Shown here: positions 795 through 4,717 of the stretch, piece after piece | Layout: each line of letters opens with the position of its first letter | How positions within the stretch are numbered: the stretch's first letter is position 1 | The notes under the pieces: model-generated | The model's database searches: none | The model's input: the letters and a program-made list of their open reading frames with translations, nothing else | Told to the model about the DNA's origin: nothing | Origin: Candidatus Erabacter solicola | GTDB lineage: Bacteria; Vulcanimicrobiota; Vulcanimicrobiia; Vulcanimicrobiales; Vulcanimicrobiaceae | Assembly (NCBI GenBank): GCA_003136895.1 | Contig: PLDY01000045.1 | Span: forward strand, 5,486-41,834 | Direction: 5' to 3' | DNA length: 36,349 nt | Translations under genes and position numbers: made by a program

Positions 795-1214
795 ATGGGC
801 AACATCCGAGAGTTCACCACGGTTGCGTGCCGCTTCGACGACGTTCCCGACCGGCTCTACGCGCATTTTGACGGCGGCAACGCCGTGCTTCCGCTTTGCG
901 TCCGGCTCGGCGATCTGCGTCTCGAACGCGATGTCGATTTTCACCTGAAGTCGAAGCCGGGTTACCCAGGCTATCGCCTCCTCGACGTGTCTTGGGAGCC
1001 AAAAGACGGAGGCCCGTATCCGACGTTCAAGGGCTTACTCAGCGTTGCTCAGGAGGCGATCGGCTGGAGCCGAATCGACATCGACGGCACGTACCAGCCG
1101 CCCTTCGGCATCGCCGGCGCGGTTTTCGACGCAGCAGTCGGCCAACGCATCGCGCAGGGCGCGGCGACCGAGCTGCTCGGCGAGGTCAAGCGAATTCTCC
1201 TCGCGCTAGGCTAA
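795..1214 (+). CDS. SRPBCC/START-like small protein, paralogue A
   Basis: A 139-residue soluble protein without signal peptide or membrane segment. Its C-terminal half, with GTYQPPFGIAGAVFD followed by an amphipathic helix, resembles the last strand and long helix of SRPBCC (START/Coq10-like) ligand-binding folds. This fold assignment is inference from pattern. The protein is clearly homologous to the product of 2211-2693: the two align from end to end, with GxYQxPFGxxGxxFDA as the best block. The two paralogues flank the response regulator and its H-box partner, which suggests a link to that signalling unit. The TAA stop overlaps an ATG at 1214 that is in frame with the response regulator, so translational coupling is possible if that start is used. 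Confidence 0.7.
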   Translation: MGNIREFTTVACRFDDVPDRLYAHFDGGNAVLPLCVRLGDLRLERDVDFHLKSKPGYPGYRLLDVSWEPKDGGPYPTFKGLLSVAQEAIGWSRIDIDGTYQPPFGIAGAVFDAAVGQRIAQGAATELLGEVKRILLALG

Positions 1215-1327: not shown

Positions 1328-2029
1328 GTGGCCCAGACCCCCAGCCGAACCGTACTACTCGTCGATGACGAAATCGCGGTGATGGACGTTCTCGAACGTT
1401 ATCTCCGCGACGACGGGTTCAATGTCGTGTGTGCCGCCGACGGACCGGCCGCTCTCGAGATGTTCGCGCGCCACTCTCCGGATTTAGTCCTGCTCGATAT
1501 CAACCTTCCCGGATTGCCGGGCACCGAAGTGCTGCGCCGGATGCGCTCCGAACGCGACGTTCCCATCATCATGCTGACCGGCCGCATCGAAGAGATCGAC
1601 CGCGTGGTCGGGCTCGAACTCGGCGCCGACGACTACGTCGGCAAGCCGTTCAGCCCGCGCGAAGTCGTCGCACGCGTACGGAGCGTGCTTCGCCGTAGCG
1701 AGCGAAGTGAAGCGCCGGCGTCGTCGAGCGAGCGGCGTGTCGGCGCGATCACGATCGACCCGGTGGCGCACGAAGTGCGGGTCGACGGAAAGCCGGTCAC
1801 GCTAACGCCGACGCAGTTCAAGATTCTCGACGTTCTCTCGTCGCACGTGAATCAGACGCTGACGCGCGAGCAGCTGCTCGAGCGCGTCAGCGCCGACGGC
1901 GACGTTTTCGACCGCACGCTCGACCGCCACATCGCGAACCTGCGCGCGCGAATCGAGCCCAATCCGGCAAGTCCGCGGCACATCGTGACCGTCTTCGGCG
2001 TCGGCTACAAAATGATCGACTCGGCATGA
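1328..2029 (+). CDS. OmpR/PhoB-family two-component response regulator
   Basis: The 233-residue product has a receiver domain (about residues 8-122) with acidic residues D13 and D14, phospho-acceptor D57 in LVLLDINLPG, switch T84 in IIMLTG and conserved K106 in DDYVGKPF. A linker leads to a C-terminal winged helix (about 135-232) with LTPTQFKILDVL, a recognition-helix region DRHIANLRARIE and the typical ending VFGVGYKM. It should be a phosphorylation-controlled DNA-binding regulator. I chose the GTG at 1328, directly before the receiver. An ATG at 1214 (TAATG overlap with the previous gene) would add 38 Arg-rich residues that do not look like receiver sequence. Its stop overlaps the next start as ATGA. 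The likely kinase partner is the hybrid kinase at 2819. Confidence 0.93.
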   Translation: MAQTPSRTVLLVDDEIAVMDVLERYLRDDGFNVVCAADGPAALEMFARHSPDLVLLDINLPGLPGTEVLRRMRSERDVPIIMLTGRIEEIDRVVGLELGADDYVGKPFSPREVVARVRSVLRRSERSEAPASSSERRVGAITIDPVAHEVRVDGKPVTLTPTQFKILDVLSSHVNQTLTREQLLERVSADGDVFDRTLDRHIANLRARIEPNPASPRHIVTVFGVGYKMIDSA

Positions 2030-2214
2030 GCGATCCGGCCGCGAGCCGCCTGGTCCACGAGATACGCAATCAGCTCGCAGTCGCCGTCGCGAACGTCGAA
2101 GCGTTTCGCGACGGCGTCCTCGAACCGACGCCGGCACGCCTCACTATCGTCCTCGACGCGCTCGAACAACTGGAGAACTTGCTACGCGAGATACCGTCAG
2201 AGCGGTCGTCTTAG
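2026..2214 (+). CDS. 62-residue H-box (DHp-like) miniprotein coupled to the response regulator
   Basis: This small protein starts at an ATG that overlaps the response regulator stop by 4 nt (ATGA), so it is probably translationally coupled to it. Residues 8-25 read SRLVHEIRNQLAVAVANV, matching the H-box of histidine kinase dimerisation/phospho-acceptor domains (H-E-x-R-N-x-L), with H11 as the candidate phospho-acceptor. A second predicted helix (about residues 36-56, ARLTIVLDALEQLENLLREI) would complete a helical hairpin. There is no room for a catalytic ATPase domain. It could serve as a histidine phosphotransfer protein between the hybrid kinase and the regulator, or act as a decoy or dimerisation partner. 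The function is inferred. Its stop overlaps the convergent paralogue B by 3 nt. Confidence 0.75.
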   Translation: MSDPAASRLVHEIRNQLAVAVANVEAFRDGVLEPTPARLTIVLDALEQLENLLREIPSERSS

Positions 2215-2693
2215 CAAGACGCTCGCCCCGCACGATACGCGGTCTCCGATTGCCGCGCTGCGCCGGCGAGGATATCGGCGGCGAGGCGATCGAGCATATC
2301 TTCCAACCCGCGCGGTGCAATGCCGCGAGCGGCGGTGGCGTCGAACGCGCGACCCAGCAGCCCGAACGGCACCTGATATTCGCCCGACAGCTTCAGGCTC
2401 GTCACGGCGGCGCCCAACTCGATAGGCTCGAGCTCGCCTCGGAAGCGCGGGTACAACGCGGACGCGTTCAGAGCCGCGATGGCCAGCCCGAATCGCGGGC
2501 TCCTCGGCGCCGGGTAGTTCACGCGCAAGCGCACCGGCACCGCAATGCGGCCAGCCCCCGGGATACGTGCGGCCAGGACGACCGTCCCGTGCTCAGAGGC
2601 TTCTTCCAAGACCTCCAGCTGGGCTCGCAGCAAGGGCACGATCGAGTCGCAGCTCAGCGGCAAGCTTCGCGTAATTGAGACCAACGAAGTCAT
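2211..2693 (-). CDS. SRPBCC/START-like protein, paralogue B
   Basis: The 160-residue product contains SGEYQVPFGLLGRAFDATAA near its C-terminus and aligns with the 139-residue product of 795-1214 over the whole length. In particular LYPRFRGELEP matches PYPTFKGLLSV. Aligning the N-termini (MTSLVSITRSL with MGNIREFTTVA) supports the start at 2693; the frame is open a further 81 nt upstream. No signal peptide is seen. The C-terminus carries an extra tail of about 20 residues ending near RASC. It converges on the H-box gene with interleaved stop codons and diverges from the hybrid kinase with a 125-bp gap. An SRPBCC-type ligand-binding fold is likely but not proven. Confidence 0.7.
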   Translation of the reverse strand: MTSLVSITRSLPLSCDSIVPLLRAQLEVLEEASEHGTVVLAARIPGAGRIAVPVRLRVNYPAPRSPRFGLAIAALNASALYPRFRGELEPIELGAAVTSLKLSGEYQVPFGLLGRAFDATAARGIAPRGLEDMLDRLAADILAGAARQSETAYRAGRASC

Positions 2694-2818
2694 CCCGACG
2701 GCCGCCGCAGGGCATGTAAGTGCATTCCGAGATACTCGCCGATCCGACGGAAGATGATTGGAACGAGGATTCACACGAGAGGTACGCCATCGGGCGCGGT
2801 TAACCGAGCCCAGACGGC

Positions 2819-4717
2819 ATGCAAGATCCCTCGTACCTGCGCCTCGTCGTCGAGGCAGCGCCCGTCGCCATCGTCGTCGCTGACGAAAGCGGCAGTATCA
2901 CGCTGGTCAACGGCCAAGGCGAGCGCCTTTTCGGATACGATCGCGACGAGTTGCTGGGGCGTTCCATCGAGACGTTGGTGCCCGATCGTTTCCGCGCCGG
3001 CCACCCTGGGCTCCGCCGAGAGTACCTAGCCGCGCCGACGACACGGACGATGGGCGCCGGGCGCGATCTGTTCGGGCTGCGGAAGGACGGCACGGAAGTT
3101 CCCATCGAGATCGGCCTCAACCCGATCGCGACGCCGCAAGGGAACTTCACGCTCGCGGCCGTCATCGACATCACACAGCGCAAGCACGCCGAGGGACTGC
3201 GGCTAGAGCGCGACCGCGCCGTCGACGCGTCGCAGCTCAAGTCGCAGTTCGTAGCGACGATGAGCCACGAATTGCGTACGCCGCTCAATGCAATCATCGG
3301 CGCCGCCGAACTGCTCAGTGGCACGAGTTTGGAAGAGCGGCAGCGCAGCTTCGTCGAGACGATCGACCAATCGGCGGAGGCCCTGCTCGCGCTGATCAGC
3401 AGCATCCTGGACTTCTCGAAAATCGAGGCGGGGAAAATCGAGCTTGAGATGCGCGACTTCGGGCTCGAGTCGATCGTTGCCGCGGCCGCGGCGGTGCTCG
3501 CGCCACAGGCTCGCGACAAGGGACTGACTCTGGACACGTACGTCGATCCGATGATTCCGCCGACGCTGCGCGGCGATCAGGACCGGCTGCGGCAGATTTT
3601 CCTCAACCTGATCGGCAACGCGGTGAAGTTCACGGAGCGCGGGCGGGTCGACGTACGCGCGCTGCTCAGCGAGACGTCGAATCGGCACTCGCGCGTGCGT
3701 TTCGAGGTTCAAGACAGCGGGATCGGAATCAACGAGGCGACGCTGCCGAAACTCTTCGAGCCTTTCGTCCAAGCCGATAGTTCGTCGTCGCGCACGTACG
3801 GCGGAACCGGCCTCGGCCTCTCGATTTCCAAGCGGCTCGTCGAGTTGATGGACGGCGAGATCGGAGTCGCGAGCGAACCGGGAAGCGGCTCGCTGTTCTG
3901 GTTCACCGCACGCTTCGGCCGGCCGAGCGTCGCCGGATCGAGCCGGCACATGTACGGCGTCCGCGCGCTCATCGTAAGTGCCGACGAGATGTTCGGCGAT
4001 ACCGCCTCGCGCTACGTAGAATCGTGGGGGATGCCGGCCATCCGCGCGCGTGATGCGGCGCTCGGGCTGGAAGCGCTCCGCGCTCGCAACGAGACGCAGA
4101 ACGCGAGCGACTCCGTCGACTGGGTCGCGATCGTCGATGGCGACGACGCTGCAGCCGAAGTCGACGCGCTGCGCAGCAGCCCGCTCTTCGAGCCTGCGCG
4201 GGTCATCGCGATCGGTCGCGAGGAACACCTATCGAAACCGATCGACCAGTCGCAGCTCTTCAACCGTATCGCCGAAGTGCTCGACGGCGGCGCAAGCCTT
4301 CCGCCGAGCCCGGCTCGGGCGCCACTTGAAGACCGGCGCGCGAGCGGGACGGTGCTCATCGCCGAGGACAACTCGAAACTGCGAGAGATCCTCGTTCACC
4401 AATTCGCCGCGCTCGGGATTCCGGTGAAGATCGTCGCCGATGGCGTCGAGGCGCTGGAGGCCGTCGCGCGCGAGCGCTTCTCGCTGATTTTCATGGATTG
4501 TCACATGCCCAACATGGACGGCTTCGCGGCGACACGCACGATCCGCGCTACGGAAGCGAGGGCCGGCGGACACGTGCCGATCGTGGCCATGACGGCTAAC
4601 GCGTTCAAGGAAGATCGCGAAGCGTGCCTGGCCGCCGGCATGGACGACTACTTGCCGAAGCCGGTGCGGATGAACGACCTGCGTAACATGGCGGAACGCT
4701 GGATCGGAGTCAGCTAA
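2819..4717 (+). CDS. Hybrid sensor histidine kinase (PAS-HisKA-HATPase-pseudoreceiver-REC)
   Basis: The 632-residue soluble hybrid kinase starts with a PAS domain (about 5-122) ending in the usual DITQRKHAE. HisKA follows, with phospho-acceptor H150 in MSHELRTPLN. The ATP-binding domain (about 250-370) has the N-box around N263/N267, the G1 motif DSGIGI and the G2 motif GGTGLGLS. Residues about 381-490 look like a degenerate receiver, with AIVDGDD around D440 and a SKP motif at 472-474 but no clear acidic pocket. The last domain (about 511-630) is an intact receiver: E516/D517, D560 in IFMDCHMPNMDGF, T592 and K614. No membrane segment or signal peptide is present, so it senses a cytoplasmic signal. 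It lacks an Hpt domain, and the H-box protein at 2026 is a candidate partner. Confidence 0.95.
   Translation: MQDPSYLRLVVEAAPVAIVVADESGSITLVNGQGERLFGYDRDELLGRSIETLVPDRFRAGHPGLRREYLAAPTTRTMGAGRDLFGLRKDGTEVPIEIGLNPIATPQGNFTLAAVIDITQRKHAEGLRLERDRAVDASQLKSQFVATMSHELRTPLNAIIGAAELLSGTSLEERQRSFVETIDQSAEALLALISSILDFSKIEAGKIELEMRDFGLESIVAAAAAVLAPQARDKGLTLDTYVDPMIPPTLRGDQDRLRQIFLNLIGNAVKFTERGRVDVRALLSETSNRHSRVRFEVQDSGIGINEATLPKLFEPFVQADSSSSRTYGGTGLGLSISKRLVELMDGEIGVASEPGSGSLFWFTARFGRPSVAGSSRHMYGVRALIVSADEMFGDTASRYVESWGMPAIRARDAALGLEALRARNETQNASDSVDWVAIVDGDDAAAEVDALRSSPLFEPARVIAIGREEHLSKPIDQSQLFNRIAEVLDGGASLPPSPARAPLEDRRASGTVLIAEDNSKLREILVHQFAALGIPVKIVADGVEALEAVARERFSLIFMDCHMPNMDGFAATRTIRATEARAGGHVPIVAMTANAFKEDREACLAAGMDDYLPKPVRMNDLRNMAERWIGVS

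Follow-up and report, generated by a model that had tools for sequence, protein, structure and literature searches.

A 62-residue protein reduced to the DHp hairpin of a histidine kinase, and its probable role as phosphotransferase for a hybrid kinase

The window, a stretch of 36,349 nucleotides from Candidatus Erabacter solicola, encodes a 62-residue miniprotein (hereafter mini) that, judging by its sequence relatives, descends from the kinase of a two-gene system: the ATPase (CA) domain has been lost and only the DHp is left. We think it probable that this CA-less DHp of a former kinase serves as a histidine phosphotransferase, passing phosphate from H150 to D560 of a hybrid kinase, then to its own H11, and finally to D57 of a response regulator. 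With a little less assurance, we extend the proposal to the class, whose kinases seem to have been stripped repeatedly to a DHp-only phosphotransferase of about 60 residues that replaces Hpt in hybrid relays. The hybrid receiver would have been re-specified at its docking helix, and three arrangements would exist: separate genes, a PAS kinase with stand-alone receivers, and a DHp fused ahead of the hybrid. An origin from a CA-less two-gene-system kinase was absent from an earlier sequence-only reading of this DNA. The features are:

1328-2029, plus strand: OmpR/PhoB-type response regulator, 233 aa, GTG start, with Response_reg and Trans_reg_C; D57 is the codon at 1496-1498
2026-2214, plus strand: DHp-only miniprotein, 62 aa; H11 is the codon at 2056-2058 and N15 (H+4) that at 2068-2070
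2026-2029, plus strand: ATGA stop/start overlap of the mini and regulator genes, read from the sequence
2819-4717, plus strand: hybrid histidine kinase, 632 aa, PAS-HisKA-HATPase_c-receiver; H150 is at 3266-3268 and D560 at 4496-4498
4352-4693, plus strand: C-terminal receiver of that kinase, residues 512-625 (Pfam)
795-1214, plus strand: small protein with a START/CoxG-like predicted fold, whose relatives recur beside many family loci
2211-2774, minus strand: second protein, which aligns with the product of 795-1214 and has a weak Polyketide_cyc2 match; convergent with the mini gene

The regulator is the presumed recipient of the phosphate and the hybrid kinase, which starts about six hundred bases downstream of the mini, its presumed source. 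The plus-strand frame at 2026-2214 translates as MSDPAASRLVHEIRNQLAVAVANVEAFRDGVLEPTPARLTIVLDALEQLENLLREIPSERSS followed by a stop. Its ATG is the sole ATG, GTG or TTG listed between the preceding in-frame stop and the DHp, and it overlaps the regulator TGA (2027-2029). ATGA or GTGA overlaps were also found at loci L003, L004, L005, and L006, and the overlap suggests translational coupling of the mini to the regulator.

The sequence-only reading had described an H11 phospho-acceptor box and a second helix without an ATPase domain, in a protein that begins within the stop of a PhoB-like regulator. It had also placed H11, D57, H150, and D560, and noted a nearby hybrid kinase with a terminal receiver and no Hpt. 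All of this stands: the positions are correct, Pfam identifies the receiver and matches no Hpt domain in the hybrid kinase, and no above-cut-off Hpt match lies within 3 kb of that gene. HisKA is the only Pfam match of the mini at E<=1 (E 1.3e-4), but the score of 22.3 bits falls under the gathering score of 26.9, and taken alone the match is suggestive only. HisKA of the intact sister kinase at L058 scores 26.0, likewise below the cut-off, as does that of a mini from the second of the two clades described below (L044, Pfam E 0.0086). Since the window mini and L044 both fall short, annotation could miss such proteins. Pfam gave no HATPase_c match for the mini, whose 62 residues lack the N, G1, and G2 boxes, and no Hpt (PF01627) match at E<=1.

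An AlphaFold monomer model built on a 27-row alignment is a helical hairpin (residues 4-28 and 36-54, pLDDT 92). With this model Foldseek returned HK853 and other HisKA DHp-CA structures as best matches, at E 0.16 and weaker (probability 0.99), and nothing at E<=0.001. Among NCBIfam models BaeS_SmeS matches at E 6.8e-5, and among sequences of solved structures AdeS (7cch) matches at E 7.2e-5 and has the DGxxxP loop in common with the mini. BaeS/AdeS-type HisKA domains are thus its closest named sequence relatives, but they are parts of full sensor kinases. The other structure-sequence matches (repeats, terminases, ribosomal proteins) are short and were taken for chance, and neither ChpT nor Spo0B was found by this search of solved structures. 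Assignment of 2026-2214 as a HisKA-type DHp hairpin is confirmed.

It is the relatives that raise the mini above chance: matches occur in many genomes, substitutions against one relative (L088) concentrate at third codon positions, and the H and N are kept throughout. At E<=0.01 the mini itself matches in 58 of 98 genomes (own included). The family alignment matches at E<=1e-4 in 80 of the 117 genomes of the class (own included), and a search of the phylum at E<=1e-8 found matches in 79 of 149 genomes, only one of which (G079) lies outside the class. Matches of at least 40 bits in fetched regions, classified by script, define 85 family loci: 36 intact short kinases, 30 DHp-only forms, 9 with a decayed CA, 3 with short tails, and 7 fused to PAS. 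Weaker tandem copies in G061 and G063 fall below 40 bits and are excluded. Domains were labelled by phmmer at thresholds of our choosing; the queries were domains from the window itself plus a few kinases of the family. Pfam agreed with the labels on the ten proteins checked apart from two kinds of exception, L044 and the fused DHps; in two of three fused proteins it missed the N-terminal DHp as a separate HisKA stretch. Twelve further regions, outside the 85, hold four intact kinases, three minis, one DHp cut by a contig end, and four weak matches, none above 25 bits, to larger kinases of a different type.

Equivalents of H11 and N15 are kept in 85 of 85 members, including all 30 minis, with a one-residue insertion between H and N in the L057 mini; the residue at H+1 is acidic in 84. 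Compared with six other clade-1 minis over 44 codons, the window mini has dN of 0.06-0.19 and dS of 0.64-1.11, rough values given the Nei-Gojobori method and the short sequences. Against L088, 26 sites differ in 44 codons, distributed 3, 2, and 21 over codon positions 1, 2, and 3. Thirteen minis were compared (7 of the 12 in clade 1 mutually, and 6 of the 18 in clade 2), and dN is lower than dS in every pair with a usable, non-zero dS; the exceptions are two clade-2 pairs without usable dS and one near-identical clade-1 pair with dS of 0. In view of this purifying selection, a chance open reading frame was rejected. The nearest regulator retains D57 and K106 in 28 of the 28 minis that have a same-strand regulator in the fetched region. 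Earlier expectations that H11 would be conserved, that the fold is a helical hairpin, that the frame is translated, and that regulator-mini pairs recur in related genomes are borne out, the fold by the AlphaFold model and translation by the way the frame evolves.

The intact members of the family point to the origin of the mini. An OmpR-type regulator immediately precedes 30 of these 36 kinases. The kinase at L050 instead comes before such a regulator, that at L058 is about 3 kb from one, and four have none labelled within 4.5 kb. Read by eye in the alignment, the CA boxes of the intact kinases are kept almost without exception (N 36/36, G1 35/36, G2 36/36), and the nine decayed and three tailed forms have lost both G1 and G2. 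Two well-supported clades each contain intact and mini forms, so CA was lost at least twice if the ancestor was a kinase. In the regulator tree, well-supported branches require at least three changes of the mini label. We infer that the change ran in the direction of CA loss, not gain.

Two other origins were considered and rejected. A recent copy of the HisKA of the hybrid kinase is opposed by a search of the own genome at E<=1, which returned only the mini itself and one 24%-identical match elsewhere, and by intact-CA relatives that are 44-60% identical to the mini; the trees leave out the hybrid HisKA. An assembly frameshift in a full kinase is opposed by the domain labels, which place stray CA sequence beside a mini at L057 alone, as part of adjoining kinases, and by the presence of the short form in separate assemblies, including G041 (7 contigs, 97% completeness).

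Spo0B, ChpT, and PhyT are likewise described as presumed former kinases that became phosphotransferases (PMC12826061, PMC3433190, PMC5898713), and intermediate steps are not visible in those cases. Here a single family contains intact kinases, kinases with a decayed CA, DHp-only proteins, and fusions of the DHp to a hybrid, all in one class and partly in one genus; genus g9 holds intact, mini, and fused forms. In three genomes (G062, G061, and G063), loci L057, L139, and L146 are tandem arrays of regulator-DHp units with one intact kinase, the others having a decayed CA or none. The intact kinase in these arrays might serve its defective neighbours.

Two kinase systems accompany the ATPase-less DHps. 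System A is the PAS hybrid kinase of the window. In system B two or three output-less receivers come after a PAS kinase; the set is often oriented divergently to the mini, and an OmpR-type regulator is close by. An orthologue of the hybrid kinase (identity of 55% or more across 350 aa or more) occurs in 14 genomes of the class, and all 14 have a mini or a fused DHp. Conversely, 10 of 11 clade-1 mini genomes have the orthologue; the remaining one, G039, carries system B, on a contig other than that of the mini. At least one of the two systems was found in 43 of the 46 genomes that have an ATPase-less DHp and in 4 of the 31 that have only intact forms (Fisher 2e-13), a comparison whose identity cut-offs were picked after the matches were seen and in which related genomes are not independent. 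Genomes with both kinds of DHp (e.g., G019, G029, and G131) were counted as ATPase-less, and three of the 80 were omitted: G069 and G014 (unrelated matches) and G077 (cut by a contig end). By genus the counts are 18 of 19 and 2 of 17. A tree-aware test on well-supported branches yielded two independent pairs, with the expected direction once or twice and the opposite never, too few for significance. The pattern has exceptions: three f2 genomes have an ATPase-less DHp and neither system, kinase B accompanies intact-CA DHps in G036, G067, G071, and G075, and it occurs with no family DHp match in G065, G104, and G123, and likewise in G077, where the DHp is cut by a contig end.

Proximity points the same way. 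A PAS kinase, or its HisKA-CA-REC part, lies within 4.5 kb of 17 of the 30 minis, some of which are at contig ends, and of 2 of the 3 tailed forms, versus 0 of 36 intact kinases. Against the relay, none lies that close to any of the 9 decayed forms, and in several genomes the hybrid is 2-14 kb from the mini or on another contig. Where mini and hybrid share a contig, their match starts are 0.8, 1.2, 2.3, 5.3, 12.3, 12.9, 13.8, and 14.0 kb apart; G060 and G133 have the two on separate contigs. At type-2 loci the receiver alignment singles out no stand-alone receiver that could be named as the donor.

At seven loci a PAS domain follows the DHp in the same protein, and this PAS is a homologue of the one in the hybrid kinase. 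Six of these proteins run on through HisKA, CA, and receiver, and these PAS-HisKA-CA-REC hybrids are 56-58% identical to the window's kinase. The DHp-PAS fusion is a Rosetta-stone link between the mini and the hybrid kinase. The seventh, at L052 (4473-5141), stops after the PAS and lacks kinase domains; a PAS hybrid kinase on the same strand follows about 3 kb downstream, and the L052 protein is possibly an intermediate between the separate and fused forms.

We found no Hpt within 3 kb at any of 17 places of mini-linked and fused hybrid orthologues, versus at least 26 of 37 places of paralogues, with matches below the cut-off excluded from both counts. By coordinates, at least 20 of the paralogue places have the Hpt within 150 bases downstream, and Pfam confirmed the adjacent Hpt frames in three of three examples. 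These paralogues are hybrids 40-48% identical to the window's kinase, except for a partial match near the G129 mini that is 60% identical and has no Hpt. The absence applies to the mini-linked hybrid kinase and not to whole genomes: an Hpt was found elsewhere in 15 of 16 genomes searched, a point that weighs against the relay, and genomes devoid of Hpt are ruled out by a match in at least 74 of 98 (own included). The own genome has one Hpt above the cut-off (G000:C5:10319-10573, L171 2820-3074), and a different hybrid kinase (L171 4338-6200) lies on that contig at a distance of about 1.3 kb.

The receiver of the mini-linked hybrids also differs from that of the paralogues. We aligned receivers of 10 mini-linked hybrids, 19 Hpt-linked paralogues (out of at least 26), and 11 clade-1 mini regulators, and scored 82 columns. 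Regulator-like rather than paralogue-like columns number 3 of 8 in helix alpha-1, the limits of which were chosen after inspection of the alignment, and 0 of 74 elsewhere (Fisher 6e-4). Two of the three are common to the six fused hybrids, which weighs against the relay reading. Over 13 alpha-1 columns, similarity of the ten hybrid receivers to the paralogues is 4.0, versus 10.2 within the paralogues; the rest of the receiver domain stays paralogue-like (69 of 102 columns versus 45 with the regulators). Alpha-1 of the hybrid receivers has thus departed from the Hpt-linked pattern. It does not single out the cognate regulator, given the small difference in similarity out of 13: 4.8 to mini regulators, 4.7 to regulators of intact clade-1 systems, and 4.4 to those of the other clade. 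A DHp is expected to meet receivers at the alpha-1 face, according to one source (PMC9981736), and the shift therefore sits at the place to be expected if the receiver had switched from Hpt to DHp.

In the relay that we propose, two mini hairpins would pair into a four-helix bundle. The hybrid kinase would autophosphorylate at H150 and pass the phosphate to D560 of its receiver, which would dock on the bundle and phosphorylate H11, and the coupled regulator would then accept the phosphate on D57. Flow may be reversible, and H11 and N15 may additionally support dephosphorylation of the regulator.

A conserved histidine alone cannot single out such a relay, because the histidine is also reported in phosphatase reactions (PMC5727384). 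The mini could be mainly a phosphatase of the regulator that works through H11 and N15 (H-E-x-x-N), sets a threshold, and carries no signal, with the regulator phosphorylated from another source. EnvZ reportedly has phosphatase activity without its catalytic domain, and the asparagine kept in 85 of 85 members and the acidic H+1 in 84 of 85 would suit this role. The isolated DHp of HK853 is likewise described as active as a phosphatase, with both its histidine and its E/DxxT/N motif involved (PMC5727384). We still regard a phosphatase as an unlikely main function, since it leaves unexplained the fusion of DHp and hybrid, the missing Hpt beside the hybrid, and the divergence of receiver alpha-1. 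Split kinases exist, and the partner kinases have HATPase_c, so H11 could be phosphorylated in trans by the CA of the PAS kinase or by another CA, with no receiver step. This we consider quite improbable: the partner kinases carry their own HisKA, and the receivers present in 10 of 10 aligned mini-linked hybrids would have no role. Within 4.5 kb of the window mini, no CA was labelled apart from the one in the hybrid kinase. Across the 30 mini loci, a CA lacking a HisKA of its own was labelled at that distance in one case, L057, and there it is part of adjacent kinases of the family.

Small size would fit a dimerisation or decoy module that binds the regulator or a kinase DHp and inhibits without catalysis, in the manner of the small proteins Sda and KipI, which are predicted to block DHp/CA contact (PMC12189002). 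A steric decoy has no need of the H and N that are invariant in 30 of 30 minis, and the relay is favoured over it by the fusion, the co-occurrence, the absence of Hpt beside the hybrids, and the alpha-1 divergence; we rate a decoy as very unlikely. The mini does resemble the remnant of a kinase, as would suit a functionless, degenerating one, translated or not. The low dN relative to dS (0.06-0.19 versus 0.64-1.11) and the short forms in many genomes leave that explanation scarcely credible.

Returning to the relay, the best reading by analogy is that the mini is a kinase-derived phosphotransferase of the ChpT/PhyT kind, cut down to the hairpin; if this is right, it would work like Spo0B, ChpT, and PhyT. 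ChpT of Caulobacter and Spo0B of Bacillus are dimeric histidine phosphotransferases built on a DHp-like helical hairpin. ChpT has a kinase domain architecture and no ATP autophosphorylation (PMC3433190), and Spo0B is possibly a former kinase without its sensor and ATP-binding domains (PMC12826061), as these sources put it. In Sphingomonas, PhyP/PhyT is presented as a kinase homologue with a degenerated ATPase domain, with phosphate passing from the single-domain receiver SdrG to PhyR (PMC5898713). This arrangement, so described, has parallels in the family: members with a degenerate CA, and loci that carry stand-alone receivers. The differences concern what surrounds the hairpin. ChpT retains a C-terminal Bergerat-like domain (PMC3433190), whereas nothing follows the hairpin in the mini. 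PhyP/PhyT are predicted to be membrane-anchored and have HRxxN and the degenerated ATPase domain; the mini is 62 aa long, has HExxN, and lacks such a domain. An ATPase-like C-terminal domain, the common feature of ChpT and PhyT, is absent from the mini, decayed in nine relatives, and reduced to short tails in three. Spo0B, unlike the mini, also has more after its hairpin. Hpt proteins (PF01627) have the same proposed shuttle role from hybrid receiver to regulator and belong to a different family.

The isolated DHp of HK853 is reported to form a homodimer, bind its regulator, and be active (PMC5727384). The isolated DHps of HK853 and EnvZ are laboratory truncations, whereas the mini is a natural gene. 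In searches of the open-licence literature we recognised no natural DHp-only phosphotransferase; with subscription papers mostly outside that scope, this supports novelty weakly. The family makes two questions testable: whether a bare hairpin suffices for a relay, and how a hybrid receiver changes from Hpt to DHp. If the relay is real, the mini would offer synthetic signalling a minimal component of natural origin.

The proteins encoded at 795-1214 and 2211-2774 belong to a family found next to minis and intact kinases alike. Relatives of the 2211-2774 protein adjoin the hybrid kinase in L163, L166, L174, and L175, and family members were noted at L163 5145-5627, L166 4066-4548, and L167 6285-6746 and 9540-9959. 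Pfam matched Polyketide_cyc2 in two of nine members (best E 0.0055). Foldseek indicated a START/CoxG-like fold (best 2ns9, E 5.9e-5) from models with a best pLDDT of 75 and 46-65 for the remaining four. The family may provide the system with a sensor or be one of its targets. In the hybrid kinase, residues from about 370 to 508, between the ATPase and receiver domains, appear receiver-like by eye, with the usual acidic residues absent and no Pfam match. Finally, sequence reading suggests that 232-654, on the minus strand, encodes a small exported cupredoxin-like protein that resembles the copper domain of cytochrome-oxidase subunit II.
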